This document shows, piece by piece, positions 3,304 to 14,241 of a stretch of 29,001 nt of DNA. The position numbers were made by a program, and so were the translations under genes. This DNA is from a virus: IMG/VR virus record IMGVR_UViG_3300013137_000076, positions 1 to 29,001 of that record. One strand, written 5' to 3'. Positions within the stretch are counted from its first letter, which is position 1. Each line of letters starts with the position of its first letter. The notes below the pieces were generated by a model that was not told the DNA's origin, did no database searches, and saw nothing but the letters and a program-made list of their open reading frames with translations.

Positions 3304-5805
3304 TTATACCGCGGCTTGTTTAAAAGCGCAACCGCTTTTATCCTCGGTCGGAATCTGCGCGGCGATATAATGCTTTAAAACTTCGGCCGCCGTCGTTAAT
3401 TGCGCGTGTATATGACCGCATTTTATAAATAATCGTGGTTTTTTTCCGCCGTCGACCGCCGTCGGATTATTAACGCGGCCGTCTTTAAGGGCCGGATGCC
3501 AATCGAACCCGAGATCCTGTAAAAGCGCCCGGCGCTTATTTGGCGGAATAGCACGCGACAAGCGGAGCCGGTGCAAAAGATCGTCGACCGCGATCGACGA
3601 GATCCACCCGCCGGCGAATCCGATACGGCCCTCGTCGATCGCCTCGAGGATCTCTTGCTCGGCGGATCCGAGCGACGCCGTAACCGCCTCGCCGGTACTG
3701 CTGGTAATCGGTGCGCGCTGGCAATCGGTCGCCGGGTTAAATTTCGCCGGGATCTTATAGGTTGCTAAAAACTCGTGTACGATAGCATAACCGCCCTGAT
3801 TTTTTAACCAATCGTACAAGCGCGGGAAATAATCGCCGGCCATACCGTCGCGTACTATATCCTCGTGCGTTTGCTGTGCCGTGTAGAATACGGCGAACCG
3901 GCGGTCGTTTTGTGTTTTACGTACGGCGTCTTTATGGTTTGAGTTGAAAATAAAATTACAGCATACGTCCCGCATTGATCGCTCGGATTGCATTAAGCGG
4001 CTCGATTGCCAATCCCCGGTTATCATCGGTTTTAATATCTCGAGTAATTCGCGTTTATGCTCGGCGACCTGTATATCCTCGATCCCGATAACGATCGTAT
4101 TAAATAACCACGAGTTAAATTTTTCGCCGATTTCACTCGCCGGCGGGACGTGAGCATAACGGCGGCCGATCGCCTCGATCAAAACAAACGTAAACAGCGA
4201 CTTTCCGTTACCCTCGGCGCCCTGTAACAACGGCGACCATTTGAATTTAACGCCTTTGTATTGCACGACGGCGGCGAGCCACGCGAGTAAAATTTCCCGA
4301 TCGCGCGGATCCGGAAGCACCTTTTTTAAATGATCGAGAAACGGCGACGGATCGCCCGGGGCGCGCGGCGTGCATATATCGACGTACGAGTTAACGAGGC
4401 GCTGGCCGCACGCGTCGATTATTTCCCCGGGTTTAAGATCCGGCCGAAACGTGGCCGCGTCGGCTTTTGGGAATCGCGCGAGTTGTGATTCGGTAAACGC
4501 CTCGAACGCTTTTCGCGTCGTTTTTTCCTCGTCGAGTTGAAACGTATATCCGCCGTACACCGCGTTAAATTGTTCCGGTTTTAATAGCGATCCGTCCGGG
4601 GTAAGTATTCGATGCTGATCCTTAACGTACGTGCACCCCTTAAAATGCGCTATTTGTTGCGGCGCCGGTAAATACTGTATCCCGGATACGAGGCGCGCCG
4701 TTGTTGTTTGCGTATCCATATCCGGGGTTATTTTTCCGGCGAGCTCGGCGGCCGGCGTGGCCGCGTTATCGATCCAAAATTTTGCACTTGAAATTTGTTT
4801 TAACGTCGCCGGGATCTCGTCGGTAAATTCCGCGAATTTTTTAGCGCGAATTTCCGAGCCGGATAATTTTTGTTTTTGGGATCCGCGTAACGCAACCGCC
4901 CCGGCCGGCGGCGCCGGGATCTCTTTTTTAACGCTAAAATAATCCTTAGTGCTCGAGCACGCGTTTATAATCGTCCGTTGTATATAATCCTTGCGGGCCC
5001 ACTTGTCGCGCACGAGGCCGGATCGGAACATTAACTCCCGGATCCGCTCGCAATTCGCGCCCGTCCAGAAAGCTAAATGCACGGCGAGCGCCATATCGGC
5101 GCTTGACTCGTCGTCGTCGTACCCGCTCGTATCGCCGGCCCATAACGCCGAGAACGATCGCCCCGTAAACGCCGCGGCGGGCGAAACCGAGGCACACGCT
5201 CTAACGATCAACTCGTCGTCGGTAAGCGTGGACGTATAACCCTCGACCGGCGTATCCGTCCAGCCTCGCGAGGGCCCGGCGGCGCAATCCCGGCCGGCGA
5301 AATACTTCGCGATAACGGCGTTTAATGCGGCCGTGCAATCGGCGCCCGCGCGCCCGCGGATTTCAATCCCGGTCAACGCGACAAACCGTTTCGCCGTGTA
5401 GAGCTCGAGGCCGAGGCCGGTATTTTTGCACGCGTGCTCCGGCCGGGGCCCGGAATAACTGCCGATAATATGGAGGCCCTGCCCGGACTGCGATATTTCG
5501 ACGAGCGCCTCCGGGAACGCGGCGACCATTTCCAGCGCGAGCGGCGACCATTCGCCGGAGGGCGTCCGGCACTTGTCGACGTCGATAAAAAAGAACGGAT
5601 CGGACTCGGTAAATACAAACCCGATCCCGTACCCGGGGCCGTACGCCGGTAAAATCTGCGCCGCCGTGGCCGCGTCCAGCCACGCGGCCGGATCGTGCGC
5701 GTCGGATATCTGCGCGGTATTGTAGTTAATCGGGAATTTCCGCCCGTCGCGGATCGTCCATAAAATAAACTGTTTTACGTTTGTTAACTCCGAAAATCGA
5801 TTCAT
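3304..5805 (-). CDS. Prim-pol / SF3-type helicase fusion (primase-helicase), 833 aa
   Basis: The N-terminal domain carries the archaeo-eukaryotic primase signature: FFFIDVDK (Asp75, Asp77) and SGQGLHIIG (His112), as in bifunctional DNA primase/polymerases. The C-terminal half has a P-loop GAEGNGKS at about 527-534 and a following acidic strand (IVIGIEDIQV), as in D5/P4-type phage helicases (DUF5906-like). The enzyme would prime and unwind at the fork. The start at 5805 overlaps the upstream regulator's stop (ATGA) and has GGGGAGG upstream; the 45-residue extension to 5940 lies in another gene and is rejected. It is the largest gene of the leftward replication arm and is followed by a 13-bp hairpin. 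Confidence 0.88.
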   Translation of the reverse strand: MNRFSELTNVKQFILWTIRDGRKFPINYNTAQISDAHDPAAWLDAATAAQILPAYGPGYGIGFVFTESDPFFFIDVDKCRTPSGEWSPLALEMVAAFPEALVEISQSGQGLHIIGSYSGPRPEHACKNTGLGLELYTAKRFVALTGIEIRGRAGADCTAALNAVIAKYFAGRDCAAGPSRGWTDTPVEGYTSTLTDDELIVRACASVSPAAAFTGRSFSALWAGDTSGYDDDESSADMALAVHLAFWTGANCERIRELMFRSGLVRDKWARKDYIQRTIINACSSTKDYFSVKKEIPAPPAGAVALRGSQKQKLSGSEIRAKKFAEFTDEIPATLKQISSAKFWIDNAATPAAELAGKITPDMDTQTTTARLVSGIQYLPAPQQIAHFKGCTYVKDQHRILTPDGSLLKPEQFNAVYGGYTFQLDEEKTTRKAFEAFTESQLARFPKADAATFRPDLKPGEIIDACGQRLVNSYVDICTPRAPGDPSPFLDHLKKVLPDPRDREILLAWLAAVVQYKGVKFKWSPLLQGAEGNGKSLFTFVLIEAIGRRYAHVPPASEIGEKFNSWLFNTIVIGIEDIQVAEHKRELLEILKPMITGDWQSSRLMQSERSMRDVCCNFIFNSNHKDAVRKTQNDRRFAVFYTAQQTHEDIVRDGMAGDYFPRLYDWLKNQGGYAIVHEFLATYKIPAKFNPATDCQRAPITSSTGEAVTASLGSAEQEILEAIDEGRIGFAGGWISSIAVDDLLHRLRLSRAIPPNKRRALLQDLGFDWHPALKDGRVNNPTAVDGGKKPRLFIKCGHIHAQLTTAAEVLKHYIAAQIPTEDKSGCAFKQAAV

Positions 5806-6323
5806 ACGCGCGCCTCCCCCGTCGAAATAATCGCCGCGGCGCGTTCGATTAATTCCCGGGGCGCCCGGAGCGCGCGCGGATGCGAAACGCTCAACGCTTG
5901 CGCGACGACCCGGGGCCGCCCGCGGGTTATCGCCTCGCATAAAACAGCGTCCCGGAGGCCGTCGATCGTCCCGAAATAATGCGTAACCGTGCCGGCCGAA
6001 ACATTCGCGGCGATCGCGACGCCCCCCCGTGTTATCGTATTCCAGCCCACGCGCTCGGCGTGCTCGAGGGCGAGCGATAAAATAAGCGCCCGGCGTAACT
6101 CGGGATTTACGCGCGTTTTTGTTACGTCGCGCGCCTCGACCGGAACTCCGGATTTATAAAGCTCGGTAATAAATTCGCCGAACGATTTCCCGGTAACGTG
6201 TTTAAACGACCCCTCCGGTACGCCCGCCTCGCGACATAAATCGTACTGCGATATATTAACGAGGCCGATACGGGCCGCCATACGCCCCGCCGTGTCAATT
6301 AAAACCCGATGTTTACGTTTCAT
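5802..6323 (-). CDS. Tandem TetR-type HTH protein, 173 aa
   Basis: Two segments resemble the N-terminal DNA-binding domain of TetR regulators. The first is at about 6-52 (IDTAGRMAARIGLVNIS, LCREAGVPEGSFKHV, KSFGEFI). The second is at about 78-125 (ALEHAERVGWNTITRGGVA, AANVSAGTVTHYFGTIDGLRDAVL). The second is the better match, with the usual S-x-GTV-x-HYF recognition helix. No ligand-binding domain of about 130 residues follows, only a short basic helix. It may bind DNA as a single-chain pseudo-dimer, either as a regulator or as an origin-binding or replication accessory protein; its place between nuclease and primase favours either. Start 6323 overlaps the upstream stop (ATGA) and has GGAGG nine bases upstream; the start at 6341 is less likely. 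Confidence 0.6.
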   Translation of the reverse strand: MKRKHRVLIDTAGRMAARIGLVNISQYDLCREAGVPEGSFKHVTGKSFGEFITELYKSGVPVEARDVTKTRVNPELRRALILSLALEHAERVGWNTITRGGVAIAANVSAGTVTHYFGTIDGLRDAVLCEAITRGRPRVVAQALSVSHPRALRAPRELIERAAAIISTGEARV

Positions 6324-6793
6324 TTCGAGAACCCTCCGCATATAAATTTTGCGTCGCCTCCGAGCGAAATAACAAGCTCAATAAATCGTAATTGAGCGCG
6401 CTCGCGCTCGGTGCCGGCAAACGTCCAGCCGGGCGCCTTGCACTCCCGCGCGATAAACTGCCCGATAGTATGGCCGACAAAATTCGGCGTAATTAAAACC
6501 GGGCGTATCCCTATCAGATCCGACGACTTTATTACCACGTTTAATTTCGCCGAATCGTTCGCGAGGCCGTACCGAATAAAATCGCCGTTGTCCGTATACG
6601 CGGCCCCGACATTATTTCGGAATAAACGCGCGCCGGCCCGGCTCGCCTCGATCCGCGCGAGGGCCATAACGTCGGCCTCGGTTTTAACGATCGACGGTAA
6701 TACGACCTCCGCCTCGTCGATTCCGACGAGGCGTTTTAAATCGTCGAGCGCCGTCGCCGGAATACCATGTTTAACCGCCCATTGTGTCAGCAT
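6320..6793 (-). CDS. VRR-NUC domain nuclease, 157 aa
   Basis: The C-terminal two thirds fit the small phage VRR-NUC (PD-(D/E)XK) family. An RNN motif (59-61) precedes SSDLIGI with putative Asp92, then ARECKAPGW with Glu117 and Lys119, and the IGQFIARE segment typical of the fold. These proteins are often encoded beside SF2 helicases in phage replication modules and are thought to cut branched DNA. The gene overlaps the helicase by seven bases (ATGCTGA) and the HTH gene by four, so all three are likely translated together. The first 45 residues are a helical extension. Confidence 0.85.
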   Translation of the reverse strand: MLTQWAVKHGIPATALDDLKRLVGIDEAEVVLPSIVKTEADVMALARIEASRAGARLFRNNVGAAYTDNGDFIRYGLANDSAKLNVVIKSSDLIGIRPVLITPNFVGHTIGQFIARECKAPGWTFAGTERERAQLRFIELVISLGGDAKFICGGFSK

Positions 6794-8418
6794 GTTTTTA
6801 AATCCTCGTTAATGCGCTCCGCCAATAGTAGGGCCGCCGGTTCCCCGAGCGACTGCGCTGTTAATACGTCGACGCCGTATTTAAAAAAAAACCTTTTATA
6901 ACTTTCCCGATCCGGCCGGCCGAGGGCCCGTTGTAACCCGCCCCAACATGCTATTGAATACCGTAAAACCGCTTGCGCGTCTTGCTGTTTAACGTGCCTT
7001 TTTGTATGCGCGAGCTCGCCCAAAAACGGCGCGCCCTTTGCGCGCAATTCCGCCGCGAACAACGGGGCCGGCATATCGACACGATCGACGAGGCCCCGCA
7101 ACCGCGCGAGCGCGATCGAATCGAGCTCGACGAGATCGCCGTCGACTTGTTCCGGCGTCGATCGGGCGGCCGGGATATAAAGCTCGCCGCAATACGGACA
7201 CGCGAGTAAAACGCGCTCGTACACCCCGAGGCATTTCGCGCAAACGCGGCACGGTATTGCCCCGTCGTTCGCGGCGCGTGCCGTACGATCCCGGCGGTCG
7301 AGCGTCCAAACGCGCGCGCCGTCCGGGAGGCCGTGGCGAATAACGTTCGATACGTGATCGATTATAACGGCGTGGCTTTTTCCCTCGAGCGGGCGTAACG
7401 CCCGGCCGAATTGTTGCGCGAATAGGGCATAACTTTGCGTCGGCCGGGCCATTGATACGACTTCGATCGCCGGCAAATCGAAACCCTCGCCGAACAAATC
7501 AACGTTGACAAGCTGTAACAGATCCCGGCGGGCAAATTTACGCAATACATTAACGCGCTCGGCGTCGGGCGTTTCCGCGGTAACAACGGCCGCCGGCACC
7601 CTCGCGGCGTTAAAACGATCCGCTATAATTCCGGCCGTTTCAACGTCCGGGGCGAACGTTACGCCGAGTTTACCCGGGGCGATTTTTTTATAATGTTCGA
7701 CGACGTCGCCAATTACTCGAGATCGACGAACAGCCCGCGCCGCCGAGGCGCGATCGTAATCCCCGCCGGCCGTTATACGGATCGCCGCGAGATCGATATC
7801 CGCGGGCGGAGCGAATACTCGGTAATCCGATAAAAATCCAGCGTCGATTAATTCACGCATGCCGGGCCCGGTAATTAACGAATCGAAAAACCCGTCCGCA
7901 TGCCGACCGAGGCCGCGGCCGTCCGCGCGCGTGGGCGTGGCCGTAACACCGAGGCCCCGGGCGTTAGAAAACATTTCAACCGCGGCGCCCCATTTATTGC
8001 TTTTTAAAACGTGGTGCGCCTCGTCCATAACCCATAAACGCACCGATTGACACCACGGGGCCAGCGCGGGCCCGCGTCGTATTAATGTATCGACCCCGGC
8101 GACTGCGACGAGCGCGTCCGGGCGATAGTACGATTTATTATAATCCGTAATATGTACCGATACGGCAAGTTTTATAATATTCCGGGGCCCAATTATTTTG
8201 TGGAATACGTGCTCGCGATTTAACGCCGCGGAAATTTGACAAACGAGCTCTTGGCGATGCGCTACCGCGCACGCCGGAGCATTAACTCCCCGAATGATAT
8301 CGGAAAACACGACTGTTTTACCGCCGCCCGTCGGTAATACCGCGAGTACGTTTTTATCGCCGGACGACCAGCGCGTTATAATTTCCGATTTTAAATTTGC
8401 TTGATACGGCCGGAGCAT
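6787..8418 (-). CDS. SF2 DEAH-box helicase with zinc-ribbon insert, 543 aa
   Basis: Canonical SF2 motifs are present: RPYQ (3-6), Walker A PTGGGKT (29-35), DEAH (132-135), TATP (159-162), and a C-terminal RecA lobe with an FGRALRP motif VI. Past this a CRVCAKC...CPYC cluster at about 392-415 forms a probable zinc ribbon, and a helical tail follows. It resembles phage DNA helicases of the RadD/UvsW-like type and likely remodels replication or recombination intermediates together with the VRR-NUC nuclease. It is the first gene of the leftward arm. The ATG at 8418 lies about 40 bases from the inferred transcription start and has no clear Shine-Dalgarno sequence, only an A/T-rich leader. Confidence 0.88.
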   Translation of the reverse strand: MLRPYQANLKSEIITRWSSGDKNVLAVLPTGGGKTVVFSDIIRGVNAPACAVAHRQELVCQISAALNREHVFHKIIGPRNIIKLAVSVHITDYNKSYYRPDALVAVAGVDTLIRRGPALAPWCQSVRLWVMDEAHHVLKSNKWGAAVEMFSNARGLGVTATPTRADGRGLGRHADGFFDSLITGPGMRELIDAGFLSDYRVFAPPADIDLAAIRITAGGDYDRASAARAVRRSRVIGDVVEHYKKIAPGKLGVTFAPDVETAGIIADRFNAARVPAAVVTAETPDAERVNVLRKFARRDLLQLVNVDLFGEGFDLPAIEVVSMARPTQSYALFAQQFGRALRPLEGKSHAVIIDHVSNVIRHGLPDGARVWTLDRRDRTARAANDGAIPCRVCAKCLGVYERVLLACPYCGELYIPAARSTPEQVDGDLVELDSIALARLRGLVDRVDMPAPLFAAELRAKGAPFLGELAHTKRHVKQQDAQAVLRYSIACWGGLQRALGRPDRESYKRFFFKYGVDVLTAQSLGEPAALLLAERINEDLKTC

Positions 8419-8453
8419 TTATTTTTTAATCCGAAAAAAATTAAAATTTTGTA

Positions 8454-8480
8454 TTGACAACGCCGTTTATATGCTATATT
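8454..8480 (+). promoter_or_regulatory. Rightward sigma70-type promoter
   Basis: The -35 TTGACA (8454-8459) matches the consensus exactly. The -10 is TATATT (8475-8480), preceded by TG one base upstream (extended -10), with a 15-base spacer; a 17-base spacer would give TATTAC instead. The inferred start near 8487 leaves a leader of about 45 bases before the AAGGAGG-preceded ATG at 8532. It overlaps the leftward promoter. Confidence 0.75.
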
Positions 8481-8494
8481 ACCGTACGTGTCAA
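8466..8494 (-). promoter_or_regulatory. Leftward sigma70-type promoter
   Basis: Read on the - strand, TTGACA (8494-8489) and TATAAA (8471-8466) are separated by exactly 17 bases, near-consensus on both elements. The inferred start is near 8459, about 40 bases before the helicase ATG at 8418. Its -10 lies inside the spacer of the rightward promoter, and the rightward -10 lies inside its own spacer. Confidence 0.78.
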
Positions 8495-8531
8495 CAAAAT
8501 TTTTTTAACCCATTACAAGGAGGTAACACGT

Positions 8532-9335
8532 ATGGACGTAACAATCACAATCCCGATCCCTAACGATCGCGCCGACGAAATTATTTCGTCCCTCGTCGCG
8601 ATAGTCGCCGCCGGCAAACCGGCCGCACAACTCGCCGCGAGCTCCGGAATCATTATCGATAAAACCGGAGCGACGCCCGCGCTCCCGGCCGCACCGGCCG
8701 CACCGGCCGCACCGGCCGCACCGGTCGCACCGGTCGCACCCGTCGCACCGATCGCACCGATCGCACCGATCGCACCGATCGCACCGGTCGACCTCGGCGT
8801 CGTCGAAACGGATTCGGCCGGCCTCCCGTGGGACGAGCGTATACACTCGCGCACCCGGGCAAAAATCGCCGGCGGAGCGTGGCGCACTAAACGCGGCGTC
8901 GATCCTGCGCTCGTCGAGCAGGTACGGGCCGAGCTCCGCGCCCTTATGAACATACCGTCGCCGGCCGCACCCGTCGCACCGGCCGCACCGGCCGACGCGG
9001 CCGCGCTTTTTGGCCCCGGGGTTAGCGTATCGCCCGGCGCCGCCGTAATGCTCGCCGCAGATAACCCGCTGGCCGCACCGGCCGCACCGGCCGCACCGGC
9101 CGCACCGGCCGCACCGGCCGCACCGATCGCACCGATCGCACCGATCGCACCCGAGGGCGAAAAAATTCCGGCGACGTTTTCGGAATTTGTCGGCGCGCTT
9201 ATAATGCGCGGAATACCGACCGAGCATATTAACGCAACGCTACAAAAACACGGCGTCGCGTCCCTGCCCTTGCTGGCGATGCGCGCGGATCTTATTCCGA
9301 CGTTGTGGAGGGAATTATGCCCGGGCATGCACTAA
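8532..9335 (+). CDS. Phage protein with Ala-Pro repeat linkers, 267 aa
   Basis: The order is: an N-terminal domain (1-50); an 11-unit Pro-(Ala/Val/Ile)-Ala linker (52-84); a central segment (about 85-139) with GLPWDERIHSRTRAKIAGG and WRTKRGVDPALVEQVRAEL; a short second linker; a third 9-unit linker (180-206); and a C-terminal helical domain (208-267, TFSEFVGALIMRGIPTEHI...). To my knowledge the LPWD-RIHS...W-RGVD pattern recurs in phage proteins encoded beside replication genes, without known biochemistry. The modular bead-and-linker form suggests a scaffold or adaptor for the replication proteins of its operon, which is inference. Start 8532 follows AAGGAGG; it is the first gene after the promoter. 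It overlaps the next gene by 19 bases. Confidence 0.72.
   Translation: MDVTITIPIPNDRADEIISSLVAIVAAGKPAAQLAASSGIIIDKTGATPALPAAPAAPAAPAAPVAPVAPVAPIAPIAPIAPIAPVDLGVVETDSAGLPWDERIHSRTRAKIAGGAWRTKRGVDPALVEQVRAELRALMNIPSPAAPVAPAAPADAAALFGPGVSVSPGAAVMLAADNPLAAPAAPAAPAAPAAPAAPIAPIAPIAPEGEKIPATFSEFVGALIMRGIPTEHINATLQKHGVASLPLLAMRADLIPTLWRELCPGMH
8685..8783 (+). repeat. 9-bp tandem repeat, 11 units (Pro-Ala-Ala type)
   Basis: There are eleven in-frame units in near-ordered blocks: four CCGGCCGCA, then three CCGGTCGCA-type (one starting CCC), then four CCGATCGCA. They encode PAA, PVA and PIA. The block order suggests growth by slippage or unequal exchange after point changes. Confidence 0.9.
9069..9149 (+). 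repeat. 9-bp tandem repeat, 9 units (Pro-Ala-Ala type)
   Basis: One CTGGCCGCA, five CCGGCCGCA and three CCGATCGCA units lie in frame, encoding LAA, five PAA and three PIA. This is the same unit as at 8685-8783 in the same gene, again with the PIA form grouped at the 3' end. Confidence 0.9.
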
Positions 9336-10489
9336 TACCCCCGAGCTCCGCCGCCGCATGGGTTAATTGCCCCATGTGCGTAACGGCCGCCCTTATGTAT
9401 TCGAGCGACGAGGAAACCGCCGCCGCTCGAGCGGGCCGGTGCGCGCATGCGGTCGCGGAGCGTATTATCGACGAGGCTCGGCGCATACTAGTTACCGGCG
9501 AAAATTTTACGCCGACGTTTAACGATATGTATACGCTTGTCGGCCCGGAAATCGACGGCGAAACCGTTACCGAGGATATGATCGCCGGCGCCCGTTTATA
9601 CTCCGACGATTTTTTATCGACGGTAAAAACATTATCGGTACACGATACGCCGCTACATACCGCCGGCGAGGTCGCGCTTCGATGCCCGAGAATACACGCG
9701 GAATCATTCGGCACGCTCGACCGGTTTTTATACGCTCCGGCGCGTCGGACGTTGATCCTATGGGAGTATAAATTCGGGTATATCGTCGTCGAACCGTTCG
9801 AGAATTGGCAATTAATAAATTATTTTTCCGGTTTGCTTGATTTACTCGATATCGTCCATGACGCGGAGTTATACGTCGAATTTCGCGTCGTACAGCCCCG
9901 GGCGTATCATCGGCTCGGCCCTGTGCGTACGTGGTGCACAACGGGCGGCGCCCTGCGCGCGTACGTTAACCGGCTCGAGCACGCCGCAACCGTGGCGCTC
10001 GGCCCGAACCCGGTCGCGCAATCCGGCCCGCATTGTAAATACTGCCCGGGCCGGCATGCGTGCGAGGCCGCCCGCGTGGCCGGCTTGCAACTGTACGAGG
10101 CCGCGACGCTCGAACTCCCGGCCGAGCTTCCGCCCGGGGCGCTCGGTACGCAATTAACAATAATCCGCCGGGCGCTCGATCAACTCCGGGCGCTCGATAC
10201 GGCGTACTCGGAGCGCGTATTCGCGGCCATTAAAACCGGGGCCGTCGTGCCCGGCTGGTGCTCGAAACCGGCGTACGGGCGCGAGGCGTGGAGCGCGCAA
10301 ATCGAAAACGTTTTAAAACTCGGCGAACTGTTTAACGTCGACCTGTCAAACCCGGGAGTAAAAACCCCGGCACAAGCTAAAAAACTCGGGATCCCTGCGA
10401 ACATAATCGCCGGGTATACGACCCGAGAAAACGCCGGCTTTAAACTCGAGCCGGAAAATACAAACCGTATCAAGGAGGCTTTTTTATGA
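9317..10489 (+). CDS. RecB/Cas4-like PD-(D/E)XK nuclease (DUF2800 type), 390 aa
   Basis: The nuclease core shows LDRFLY (putative Asp135) followed by LWEYKFGY (Glu150-x-Lys152), then a helix with NWQLINYFSGL corresponding to the RecB motif Q-x3-Y. Cysteines at 18 near the N-terminus and at 240, 243 and 249 (C-x2-C-x5-C) match the four-Cys iron-sulfur cage of AddB/Cas4-type nucleases. The N-terminal PPSSAAAWVNCP is also typical of the family. It probably processes DNA ends during replication or recombination. ATG 9317 has GGAGGG five bases upstream; the upstream GTG at 9305 is less likely. The gene overlaps both neighbours slightly. Confidence 0.85.
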   Translation: MPGHALIPPSSAAAWVNCPMCVTAALMYSSDEETAAARAGRCAHAVAERIIDEARRILVTGENFTPTFNDMYTLVGPEIDGETVTEDMIAGARLYSDDFLSTVKTLSVHDTPLHTAGEVALRCPRIHAESFGTLDRFLYAPARRTLILWEYKFGYIVVEPFENWQLINYFSGLLDLLDIVHDAELYVEFRVVQPRAYHRLGPVRTWCTTGGALRAYVNRLEHAATVALGPNPVAQSGPHCKYCPGRHACEAARVAGLQLYEAATLELPAELPPGALGTQLTIIRRALDQLRALDTAYSERVFAAIKTGAVVPGWCSKPAYGREAWSAQIENVLKLGELFNVDLSNPGVKTPAQAKKLGIPANIIAGYTTRENAGFKLEPENTNRIKEAFL

Positions 10490-11358
10490 TTCAAATCACT
10501 TCACCCGTCGGCCGGCTCGTTCAAGGGCACCCGATGAAATCAAACCCCGTTATCGACGACCGTACGAATACGCCGAAAATGCGCGCGGACGGTATAACCC
10601 CGCGGTTACAAACGTTTGTCGCGATCGCTATCCCAAAAGGCCCGGAAGCGCATTGGAATCAAACCGACTGGGGCCGCGCTATATGGACGACCGGCGCCTC
10701 CGCATGGCCGGCCGGCGAATATAACGCGCCAGCGTTCGCGTGGAAAGTAACCGACGGCGATTCGACGGTACCGAATAAACGCGGCAAGATCCCGCGCGAT
10801 TCCGAGGGCTTTCCCGGGCATTGGATTATTAAAGCCACGACCGAGCTTTCGATCCGTTGTTTTCATTTCGGCAAATACGAGGCGCATCAAGTAATACAGA
10901 ATCCCGCCGAGATAAAAACCGGCGATTATATCCGGCTCGTATTGTCGGTTAAAAGCAACGACTCCCGACAAACCCCCGGCATGTATATTAACCCGGAGTT
11001 GTGCGAACTGTACCGGGCCGGCCAGCCGATTATATCCGATGGCGGCGCGTCCGCGGCGGATACTTTCGGGGCCACGCCCGCCACGCTCCCGGCTGGCGCC
11101 GTGCTCGATACGACCCCCGTCGGCGCCCCCGTCGGGCCGGCCGCACCGGCCGCCGGAGCTATGCCGGCATACACCCCGGCGCCGGATTTCTTGCGGCCCG
11201 GAGCACCGGCCGCACCGGCCGCACCGGCCGCACCGGCCGCACCGGCCGCACCGGCGCCCGTTATTCGCCGCATGGTTAACGGCGTCGCGTACCCGGAGGC
11301 CGATTTACGCGCGGCCGGATGGAATGACGCGCAAATCGCAGGGCTCCCGGTCGCATGA
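10486..11358 (+). CDS. Putative ssDNA-binding protein (DUF2815-like) with Ala-Pro linker, 290 aa
   Basis: The N-terminal 180 residues resemble DUF2815-like phage proteins: RLVQGHP, a central aromatic beta-rich part (AFAWKVTDGD, GHWIIKATTEL) and GDYIRLVLSVKSND...GMYINPELCEL. Family members lie beside DUF2800 nucleases and PolA in phage replication modules and are regarded as likely helix-destabilising proteins. An Ala-Pro-rich linker (about 205-260) follows, then a C-terminal tail (RMVNGVAYPEADLRAAGWNDAQIAGL) that could contact partners as SSB tails do. The start overlaps the nuclease stop by four bases and has AAGGAGG upstream. The stop overlaps the polymerase start by four bases. Confidence 0.72.
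   Translation: MIQITSPVGRLVQGHPMKSNPVIDDRTNTPKMRADGITPRLQTFVAIAIPKGPEAHWNQTDWGRAIWTTGASAWPAGEYNAPAFAWKVTDGDSTVPNKRGKIPRDSEGFPGHWIIKATTELSIRCFHFGKYEAHQVIQNPAEIKTGDYIRLVLSVKSNDSRQTPGMYINPELCELYRAGQPIISDGGASAADTFGATPATLPAGAVLDTTPVGAPVGPAAPAAGAMPAYTPAPDFLRPGAPAAPAAPAAPAAPAAPAPVIRRMVNGVAYPEADLRAAGWNDAQIAGLPVA
11206..11250 (+). repeat. 9-bp tandem repeat, 5 identical units (Pro-Ala-Ala)
   Basis: Five identical CCGGCCGCA units encode the linker of the ssDNA-binding candidate. The nucleotide unit is the same as in the gene at 8532-9335, about 2 kb upstream in the same orientation, so the arrays are direct repeats. Confidence 0.9.
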
Positions 11359-13478
11359 TAATAAACACGCCGCCGCCCCCGCCGCCGCCCGACCGCGTGG
11401 CCCGTATCGATTTCGAAACGTATTCCGAGGCCGGGTATATTTTTAACCCGGATCGTAACCGCTGGGAATCGATCGCGGCCTCGCCGCCCCACGGGATCGG
11501 CGCGGTCGGCGCGGCTGTTTATTCGGAGCACGAATCGACCGAAATTCTATCTCTCGCGTATGAACTTCCGGACGGACGGGGCTCGCGTTTTTGGGCCCCG
11601 GGCCTCCCGGATCCGGCCGACCTGTTCGAGCATATCCGGGCCGGCGGACTTGTCGAGGCGCATAACTCCGCGTTTGAGTTTTATATATGGCGCAACGTGG
11701 CCGCGGCTCGCCTCGGCTGGCCCGAATTACCGCTCCGGCTTTTGCGCTGTTCAATGGCCCGGGCCCGCGCGTTTTCTGTCCCGGGATCCCTCGAGGGCGC
11801 CGGCGTCGCGCTCGGGGCCGACATTAAAAAAAGCGCGGACGGCGCCCGCTTGTTACGTAAGTTTTCGATACCGCGGAACCCCTCGAAAAACGACACACGG
11901 CGGCGTATACGCCCCGAGGACGACACCGCGGACGCCGCCCGCCTGTATGCCTATAATTTGCAAGATATCGCCGCCGAGGCCGAAATACGACGCCGTACGC
12001 CCGAATTATCACCGGTCGAGCTTTCGACGTGGTATCTCGATCAGCGAATAAACGCCCGGGGCGTTTGTATTGACACGTCCGCGCTCGATAACTGTATCGA
12101 GATCGTCCGACAAGCCGATTATAAATACACCCGGGAGTTAATGATTTTAACAAACGGGGCCGTAACGAGCGCCTCCGAAATCGCAAAGTTACAAAATTGG
12201 CTCGCCGGGATCGATTGCCCGATATACGCCCTCGACTCGGATACGGTCGCGTATCATTTACGCCGGCCGGATCTCGACCCCCGGGCCCGCCGCGCGCTCG
12301 AGATCCGCGAAATATTATCGTCGGCGAGCGTTAAAAAAACGGCCGCCATATCCCGCCGGCTATGCCGGGACGGCCGGCTCCGGGATCTATTCGCCTTTTG
12401 CGGCGCCGAGCGTACGGGGCGCTGGGCCGGCCGCGGGCCGCAACCGCAAAACCTCCCGCGCTCCGGCCCGAATATCGGCGCGGAATGGAACCCGGCCGCC
12501 GTGGAGGCCGCGCTCGACGTTATCGCGCTCCGATCCCTGCCGACGGTCGAACTTGTTTATAAAAACGCCCTCGAGGCCGTGGCCGGCTGTTTACGCGGGC
12601 TTTTTGTCGCCGGGCCCGGTAAAGATCTTATATGCTCGGATTATACCGCGATCGAGGCCGTCGTGCTGGCCGAGCTCGCCGGCGAGGCGTGGCGATCCGA
12701 GGTATTTAAAACGCACGGCATGATTTACGAAACGTCGGCGTCGCGTATAACCGGTATACCGTTCGAGCATTATATCGAGCATAAAAAAAACACCGGCGAG
12801 CACCACCCGACGCGAAACAAAATCGGCAAGGTCGCCGAGCTCGCCTCGGGATACGGCGGAGGCGTGGGCGCGTGGAAACAATTCGGGGCCGATAAACATA
12901 TCGGATCCGACGAGGATATTTTAAAAGCTGTCCGAGCATGGCGCACGGCCTCGCCGGCGATCGTCGATTTTTGGTACGGCGTCGAGCGCGCGGCGATCCG
13001 GGCCGTCGAGGATCCCGGGCAAGTTTATTTTTACAGATCGATACAGTACCAGACACGCGGCGGCGTGCTTTATTGCCGGCTCCCGTCCGGGCGCGAGATC
13101 GCGTACCACGCGCCCGAGCTTGTCCCGGATCGCACGGCCGGCGGTAAACAGGTACTCGGGTTAACGTACCTCGGAAATAATTCCGACAATAAAAGCGGCG
13201 CGCGCGGCTGGAGGCGACTCCGGACGTATGGCGGAAAATTAACCGAAAATATCGTACAGGCGACGTCCCGGGATATATTGGCAAACGCAATGCTCGCCCT
13301 CGATCGCGCCGGGTATCCGATTGTTTTACACGTCCACGACGAAATCGTCGCCGAGGTGCCGGAAGGATTCGGATCGGTTGCCGAGCTCGAGGGCATTATG
13401 TCAACCCTGCCGGCGTGGGCGGTCGGCTGGCCGGTGCGCGCCTCCGGGGGCTGGCGCGGTAAACGATACAAAAAATAA
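11355..13478 (+). CDS. polA: DNA polymerase, family A, with 3'-5' exonuclease domain, 707 aa
   Basis: After a seven-proline run, RIDFETYSE supplies exonuclease motif I (Asp19, Glu21). The polymerase part shows motif A (ICSDYTAIEAVVLAELAGE, about residue 428), a motif-B-like RNKIGKVAELASGYG (about 485-500) and motif C VLHVHDEIVAE (about 659). There is no 5'-3' exonuclease domain, as usual for phage enzymes; the length is also usual. It would be the replicative polymerase. The start overlaps the upstream gene by four bases (ATGA). The 11371-11393 region is very C-rich because of the proline run. A short SEC-C gene follows. Confidence 0.92.
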   Translation: MIINTPPPPPPPDRVARIDFETYSEAGYIFNPDRNRWESIAASPPHGIGAVGAAVYSEHESTEILSLAYELPDGRGSRFWAPGLPDPADLFEHIRAGGLVEAHNSAFEFYIWRNVAAARLGWPELPLRLLRCSMARARAFSVPGSLEGAGVALGADIKKSADGARLLRKFSIPRNPSKNDTRRRIRPEDDTADAARLYAYNLQDIAAEAEIRRRTPELSPVELSTWYLDQRINARGVCIDTSALDNCIEIVRQADYKYTRELMILTNGAVTSASEIAKLQNWLAGIDCPIYALDSDTVAYHLRRPDLDPRARRALEIREILSSASVKKTAAISRRLCRDGRLRDLFAFCGAERTGRWAGRGPQPQNLPRSGPNIGAEWNPAAVEAALDVIALRSLPTVELVYKNALEAVAGCLRGLFVAGPGKDLICSDYTAIEAVVLAELAGEAWRSEVFKTHGMIYETSASRITGIPFEHYIEHKKNTGEHHPTRNKIGKVAELASGYGGGVGAWKQFGADKHIGSDEDILKAVRAWRTASPAIVDFWYGVERAAIRAVEDPGQVYFYRSIQYQTRGGVLYCRLPSGREIAYHAPELVPDRTAGGKQVLGLTYLGNNSDNKSGARGWRRLRTYGGKLTENIVQATSRDILANAMLALDRAGYPIVLHVHDEIVAEVPEGFGSVAELEGIMSTLPAWAVGWPVRASGGWRGKRYKK

Positions 13479-13787: not shown

Positions 13788-14241
13788 GCGCATACTCGGC
13801 GGCCGCCTCTATGCCGATATAATTCCAAACGGGCGCGCGGCCGTTATACAGTTTATTACCCTGCGCGTCGCGCGCATGCACGGCACCCCAACGGGCGCGA
13901 GTACCGCGCACGTCTAAATGAAACCCGGGCGTATTCCAATCGGGATATATGCCGAACCCGATCCGATCCGATATTTGCAAAAAATCAAAAATAGCGGATT
14001 GCATTGTATACGCGTCGTAAAACGGGATCCCCTCGACGTGATAGTCGACGGCGTTTCCAATAGTATGCTGGCTGTTCGCAACGCGCCCGGCCGCCTCGTA
14101 ACCGCAATGTATAACGATCGTATGACCGAGCGACTCGCGCACGCGATCGAGCGTTAAAAGCAACAGCCCCGATATGCGCTCCGGGGCGCCCCACTTCTCG
14201 CCATATGTAAAATACTTTAACGTGTCGAATACCGTACGCAT
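13762..14241 (-). CDS. M15-family peptidase endolysin (L-Ala-D-Glu or D-Ala-D-Ala type), 159 aa
   Basis: The zinc-binding pattern of the M15_3/VanY-like peptidases is present: SQHTIGNAVDYH with His59 and Asp66, then GFGIYPDWNTPGFHLDVRG with His108. The N-terminal FTYGEKWGAPERISGLLLLTLDRVRESLGHTIVIHCGYE also fits phage members of the family. It would cut peptide bonds in the host wall at lysis. There is no signal peptide, so it would depend on a holin. It is the last gene of the leftward late operon. The ATG at 14241 has only a modest ribosome binding site (GGGTAAAAAAAC). Confidence 0.82.
   Translation of the reverse strand: MRTVFDTLKYFTYGEKWGAPERISGLLLLTLDRVRESLGHTIVIHCGYEAAGRVANSQHTIGNAVDYHVEGIPFYDAYTMQSAIFDFLQISDRIGFGIYPDWNTPGFHLDVRGTRARWGAVHARDAQGNKLYNGRAPVWNYIGIEAAAEYALKKLPRPL

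Follow-up and report, generated by a model that had tools for sequence, protein, structure and literature searches.

Two replication arms diverge from an AT-rich junction

The window, by which we mean the whole stretch of 29,001 nucleotides analysed here (positions 1 to 29,001 of the IMG/VR virus record IMGVR_UViG_3300013137_000076), contains two divergent operons separated by a short intergenic region with a GC content of 28%, compared with 56% for the window (Table 1). The gene content of the leftward (helicase, primase) and rightward (exonuclease, ssDNA-binding protein, polymerase) arms supports the proposal of a preliminary description of this DNA that the two arms encode complementary parts of one replisome. 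The first gene of the right arm is preceded by a Shine-Dalgarno sequence, AAGGAGG, at 8517-8523, and its product, which is present in most relatives, comprises Ala/Pro repeat linkers around a conserved core, GLPWDxRIHAxSK..WKxKRGVD, followed by a conserved C-terminus, LPLLAARPDLIP. This protein was also considered as an RHH-like autoregulator, a role that was set aside on an alignment that reveals no clear RHH fold, but instead the conserved GLPWDxRIHA core.

Table 1. Promoter elements, operators and genes of the replication region (positions in the window)
Feature	Position	Strand	Remarks
DNA primase (NrS-1 type HBD, DUF5906), left arm	3304-5940	-
Tandem TetR-type HTH protein lacking a ligand domain	5802-6341	-	179 aa; candidate repressor of both promoters
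Endonuclease-like protein, left arm	6320-6793	-	phrog_93
DEAD/ResIII helicase, first left-arm gene	6787-8418	-
Operator O_L, TATTGACAACGCCGTTTATA	8452-8471	none	12/14 palindrome positions; over the rightward -35 and the leftward -10
-35 TTGACA, rightward promoter (exonuclease/SSB/polymerase arm)	8454-8459	+	TTGAC kept in all but one of 47 aligned relatives
-10 TATAAA, leftward promoter	8466-8471	-	17-bp spacer; register conserved
Alternative extended -10, TGCTATATT (TATATT)	8475-8480	+	15-bp spacer; from the preliminary description; minor register in relatives
-10 TATTAC, rightward promoter	8477-8482	+	17-bp register; -10 score peak at 17 bp in relatives
Operator O_R, TATTACCGTACGTGTCAACA	8477-8496	none	12/14 palindrome positions; over the leftward -35 and the rightward -10
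-35 TTGACA, leftward promoter (helicase/TetR-like/primase arm)	8489-8494	-	conserved in relatives
First right-arm gene, Ala/Pro-rich protein	8532-9335	+	phrog_11133, unknown function
DUF2800 / phage exonuclease	9305-10489	+
Gp2.5-like ssDNA-binding/annealing protein	10486-11358	+
Family A DNA polymerase	11355-13478	+

The promoter pair is located between the two operons, where both TTGACA copies and both -10 hexamers named in the preliminary description are present at their coordinates; the 17-bp spacer of the leftward promoter and the position of each -10 within the spacer of the opposite promoter are likewise borne out by the letters. The leftward promoter matches the consensus at 11 of 12 positions with a 17-bp spacer, and the rightward promoter at 10 of 12 with a 17-bp spacer (TATTAC) or at 11 of 12 with a 15-bp spacer (TATATT). 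In a scan that imposes no rules on spacing or on the last T, a score of 11/12 is reached at four places in the whole window, two of which are the promoter pair. A simple promoter scan of the window, which restricts both the spacing and the last T, picks up neither promoter for that reason. Both promoters have -35 and -10 hexamers within the 16-18 bp separation characteristic of the sigma70 type, and we take them to be two sigma70-type promoters of the host RNA polymerase, interlocked within 41 bp and facing outward, the use of sigma70 being assumed.

The interlocked promoters are conserved in related phages

Using the helicase as a query against viral contigs retrieves 80 loci with 51-63% identity, most of which carry a divergent gene of ~200-300 aa and a DUF2800-sized gene upstream, with TTGAC...GTCAA at nearly every junction; the DUF2800 protein as a query retrieves 2 loci only in viral contigs. 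Pairs with an outer distance of 40-44 bp yield 51 sequences after removal of near-duplicates and, with four chance pairs set aside, 47 relatives, which are non-redundant yet not independent of each other. In a few loci (L008, L010, L017 and others), extra genes lie between the promoter pair and the helicase, and the pair still adjoins the right-arm gene.

The mean -10 score, plotted against spacing, exhibits a sharp maximum at exactly 17 bp on both strands, a peak that AT-richness alone would not give. At this spacing, a -10 with A2 and T6 is found in 38 of the 51 sequences on the rightward strand and in 23 of 51 on the leftward strand, the latter rising to 43 of 51 when spacers of 16-18 bp are included. 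The extended -10 TATATT that was originally assigned to the rightward promoter is indeed present and preceded by TG (8472-8473), but it lies only 15 bp from the -35, whereas the conserved 17-bp register corresponds to TATTAC, where closely aligned relatives read TATTAT. The leftward -10 is observed in two registers, at 13-18 or 15-20 from the left -35, and its register follows the distance to the right -35, so that a 2-bp displacement of the -35 is matched by an equal displacement of the -10. Of 18 loci with a distance of at most 41, 14 have A in column 13, compared with 1 of 16 at 43 or more (Fisher p 2.8e-5, relatedness uncorrected). The leftward promoter thus shifts as a whole, which is what one would expect if it is functional.

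Among 14 named phages that were fetched, 10 carry the pair at 41-44 bp. Nine of these pairs are exact, namely those of SppYZU01 (Shewanella), Scuro (Acinetobacter), PD0307 (Oceanospirillum), PY6 (Pseudoalteromonas), MR14 (Pseudomonas), Stenotrophomonas phage B2, Vibrio phages CP-T1 and CKB-S1 and Aeromonas phage AeroV_348, and that of TPWB-08 has one mismatch. The interlocked pair is absent from the remaining named phages, KpV52, MSW-3, Psp6 and Silvanus; KpV52 was considered as a further instance and rejected, since its annotated divergent promoters are arranged back to back, not interlocked as in the window. The comparison with related phages called for in the preliminary description therefore reveals conserved hexamers both in the 47 relatives and in the named phages, far beyond chance, and the promoters are conserved rather than fortuitous. 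Two divergent and mutually exclusive promoters, as originally described, are supported by the geometry as well as by the 17-bp peak, and the region is a real and widely conserved replication control region.

Two putative palindromic operators overlie both promoters

Two 20-bp palindromes of the form T(A/G)TTGAC-N6-GTCAA(C/T)A, here termed O_L and O_R, overlie the promoter pair as mirror images. Their four half-sites coincide, in order, with the rightward -35, the leftward -10, the rightward -10 (in the 17-bp register) and the leftward -35; no promoter hexamer falls outside the half-sites. Although each operator is imperfect, with two mismatches, O_L and O_R are the window's only matches to the palindrome at up to two mismatches; the chance expectation is 0.07, and two matches did not occur together in any of 100 shuffles. 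The preliminary description had regarded the outer TTGACA/TGTCAA pair as a near-palindrome that a regulator could bind. A regulator site does appear to be built into these repeats, but the outer pair is not the unit; rather, the units are TTGAC-N6-GTCAA. The full 41-bp palindrome was rejected as the operator, with only 26 of 41 positions symmetric, in favour of the two 20-bp palindromes.

In the left alignment, the columns T(-1), G/A(0), G12, C14 and A15, which neither promoter needs, are also conserved and complete the palindrome. On the left side, G-N-C-A is found at gap 6 in 24 of the 47 relatives, compared with 0-2 at any other gap; for the right side, the counts are 6 relatives at gap 6 and 0-2 elsewhere. 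O_L reaches a score of at least 11 of 14 in 42 of the 47 relatives and O_R, which is weaker, in 16 of 47. Across the loci, the palindrome occurs at 190 sites with gap 6, as against 8-38 with other gaps.

These observations bear on the possibility that nothing other than promoters is conserved here, with GTTGAC/GTCAAC acting as a strong -35 pair and the inner half-site following from the opposite -10. TTGAC is indeed a -35 and TATTG resembles a -10, so that the motifs partly coincide, and four phages keep the pair without the operator. However, conservation of G12, C14 and A15 is restricted to gap 6, C14 comes at a cost to the quality of the -10 (TATTGT instead of TATAAT), and the palindrome recurs upstream of tetR-like genes and elsewhere, where no opposing promoter is seen. 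We therefore regard conservation of the promoters only as distinctly unlikely.

Operator and promoter geometry can each occur without the other. Operators are present in KpV52 and MSW-3, which have no interlocked pair, whereas PD0307, PY6, AeroV_348 and CKB-S1 retain the interlocked promoters and encode a TetR-like protein but lack the TTGAC-N6-GTCAA operator, presumably reflecting a changed specificity of the TetR-like protein. At the divergent junctions L126, L127, L131 and L133, where the geometry is seen without the operator, there are other short repeats, for example GCTAA/TTAGC and CTAATCTAGC, which are perhaps operators of changed specificity.

A tandem TetR-like protein is the candidate repressor

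The TetR-like protein encoded on the left arm matches the Pfam family TetR_N in its second half (residues 87-133), and its first HTH also aligns to the TetR-family chains 3knw, 3rd3 and 4l62. The AlphaFold2 model (mean pLDDT 93.5) comprises two TetR-type four-helix units. Thus, the N-terminal TetR-type HTH that defines TetR-family regulators is present, and the C-terminal ligand-binding and dimerisation domain of the family is absent from the 179-aa model, making tandem TetR-type HTHs without a ligand domain an unusual form of regulator. Among solved structures, DNA-bound LuxR, HapR and SmcR come closest, with Foldseek matches that cover only the HTH part well.

Homologues of the TetR-like protein, found in 76 of the sources searched, and so in nearly all loci, and nearly always encoded on the helicase strand, are either tandem (~167 aa) or single HTH (~100 aa) proteins, and all 14 named phages encode one. 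In 26 of the 76 sources, an operator lies in the 200 bp that precede the tetR-like gene, compared with 0-2 for palindromes with other gaps. The association extends to the 34 loci retrieved with the TetR protein alone as the query (a narrow alignment), 17 of them on new contigs, 15 of which have the operator upstream of the tetR-like gene, as against 0-1 for other gaps. In these loci, the copy that precedes tetR covers the -35 of a promoter whose spacer measures 17 bp, and in many relatives the operator is found on the -35 of tetR's own promoter as well as on that of further promoters. We suggest, from this association, that the palindromes at 8452-8496 are probably binding sites of the phage's own TetR-like repressor.

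Both the TetR-type protein and an RHH (CopG-like) protein, encoded at 1393-1722 of the window, had been put forward as ligands. The operator-gene association makes the former likely. For the latter, no homologue was detected in 20 related phages by a search run without a positive control genome, making it an unlikely ligand for a site that is conserved in relatives; it was rejected in this role and is probably a local acquisition.

Comparison with known control systems

In Tn10, tetA and tetR have overlapping divergent promoters with two tandem operators (O1 and O2), and the TetR repressor shuts both directions (PMC4788846, PMC3511530). The phage region shares with Tn10 the divergent genes, the overlapping promoters, the two palindromic operators lying over both of them and a TetR-family gene on one side, which is on the leftward arm, but third from the promoter, not first. 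By contrast, the phage regulator consists of two TetR-type HTHs in one chain without a ligand domain, the targets are the two halves of a replisome, and all hexamers are embedded in operator half-sites. In tet-type systems, a small ligand acts on the C-terminal domain to bring about induction; this has no counterpart in the phage protein, whose model lacks that domain, and we therefore describe the region as working like tet control without full membership.

The HTH fold of the phage protein is nearest to those of the TetR-family regulators LuxR, HapR and SmcR, and their site layout, TATTGA(T/C)-N6-(A/G)TCAATA, has the same length and ends as the phage operator. HapR sites from ChIP-seq (PMC10328515), with the consensus TTATTGATAATTTTGTCAATAA, have the same 20-bp layout and an operator score of 9.6/14, compared with 4.5 when shuffled. 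Unlike the phage protein, LuxR, HapR and SmcR are encoded by the host, carry a ligand-binding domain and govern global regulons, and the likeness is confined to the HTH part. The pLS20 conjugation switch also has overlapping divergent promoters under the control of regulators, as outlined in PMC4207663, but it belongs to a plasmid conjugation system and, in that outline, uses DNA looping. Further counterparts are the 'TetR family' proteins of Jedunavirus, SppYZU01 and Scuro (phrog_8723 and similar), which share the family, the position in the helicase arm and the operator, but are often single HTH proteins of ~95-105 aa, not tandem as in the window.

Probable joint repression of both replication arms

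On the basis of these comparisons, we consider it likely that the region controls the replication module through interlocked sigma70-type promoters and two operators that are co-repressed by the phage's own TetR-like protein. One promoter would fire into the helicase/nuclease/TetR-like/primase operon and the other into the exonuclease/SSB/polymerase operon; with room for a single polymerase at a time, as the geometry implies, the two would share it by alternation. The TetR-like protein would bind O_L and O_R and block both promoters; with each operator extending over the two promoters, the simplest expectation is that they are repressed together and not switched between arms. Being made from the leftward arm, the TetR-like protein would exert negative feedback on both arms, which would shut down as it accumulates, thereby limiting and balancing replisome synthesis. 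The tetR-like gene of the window overlaps its upstream neighbour in the helicase operon and is not preceded by a separate operator, so the feedback loop would close at 8452-8496 alone. Thus, judging from the arrangement of the sites, the two arms are likely to be turned down together, not one against the other.

The switch between the arms that was initially proposed is not supported by the mirror-image operators, each of which overlaps both promoters, and polymerase exclusion makes the promoters alternate, but does not latch them. A toggle with lambda-like logic, in which the bound regulator shuts off one arm while releasing or activating the other, draws on the mutual exclusion inherent in the promoter geometry and on the weakness of O_R relative to O_L in relatives, since unequal occupancy could temporarily give one promoter the advantage; an effect of this kind is suggested for Tn10 by the title of a paper on tandem tet operators cited in PMC4788846. 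Against this, either bound site should block both promoters, and the arms make parts of one replisome that are needed together. Moreover, a bistable switch of the lambda type has two mutually repressing regulators, whereas one conserved regulator is found here, with no second, opposing one (the RHH homologue being found in 0 of 20 relatives, again in the search without a positive control). We regard the toggle as unlikely.

It is very unlikely, in our estimation, that a host regulator of similar specificity, such as a LuxR/HapR type in vibrios or RutR in enterobacteria, binds the palindrome and ties phage replication to the state of the host. HapR sites do share the operator layout, and RutR binds a 16-bp palindrome, TTGACCA-NN-TGGTCAA; the inner six bases of the operator, however, are free, unlike those of the RutR box. 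In addition, the operator goes together with the phage-encoded TetR gene in phages that infect Shewanella, Acinetobacter, Klebsiella, Edwardsiella and Pseudomonas, hosts that for the most part are not known to possess HapR. The low GC content and the location between two replication arms would also suit a replication origin with the repeats as initiator or primase sites, but there is no GC-skew turn at the promoter region, for which reason an origin at this place was rejected; the repeats instead fit promoter and operator spacing and have copies at other promoters, and no initiator-like repeat array is seen. An origin is accordingly highly improbable.

Within the framework of joint repression by the TetR-like protein, the comparison of phages points to a constraint on the interlocked geometry other than the operator, one possibility being that operon balance via polymerase exclusion keeps it in place. 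A more specific reading, to which we give less than even weight, is that the geometry itself is selected: many phage lineages would retain the two promoters at 41-44 bp, even after a change of operator, because enforced alternation of a single polymerase balances the replisome halves, while a single-chain, ligand-free tandem TetR repressor sets their common level and coordinates a phage-wide regulon. If true, this would represent a clean case of polymerase exclusion at divergent promoters conserved over wide divergence, and would allow one to ask whether interlocking balances the expression of two operons. No paper describing these phage promoters was found in the literature searched. The region joins a promoter pair that is conserved to a defined operator and to a named regulator, previously annotated only as 'TetR' or 'unknown function', the latter being its entry in PHROG 8723. 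Together, they offer a testable control logic for a large group of tailed phages (Jedunavirus-, MSW-3-, CP-T1- and SppYZU01-like), most of which are uncharacterised.

Operator copies elsewhere in related genomes

Complete genomes contain many copies of the operator, with strand-counted totals of 18 in KpV52, 16 in MSW-3 and 15 in CP-T1, compared with 0-2 for the reversed pattern. The operator is usable for regulon prediction in these phages. In KpV52, four promoters annotated by the depositors (4542-4570, 14016-14044, 35487-35515 and 38157-38185) begin exactly on operators of the form TTGAC-N6-GTCA, such that much of KpV52 transcription may be one TetR-like regulon. We also note that in relatives (L088 at 28348, L087 at 32533 and L010 at 3657) the exonuclease gene contains, near its 3' end and a short distance before the SSB gene, a gap-6 palindrome that has no equivalent in the window. 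This stretch encodes the peptide IDEAVI and was first viewed as a coding coincidence, a view that was dropped because the corresponding place in KpV52 is an annotated promoter; in relatives, the exonuclease coding stretch may double as an operator.
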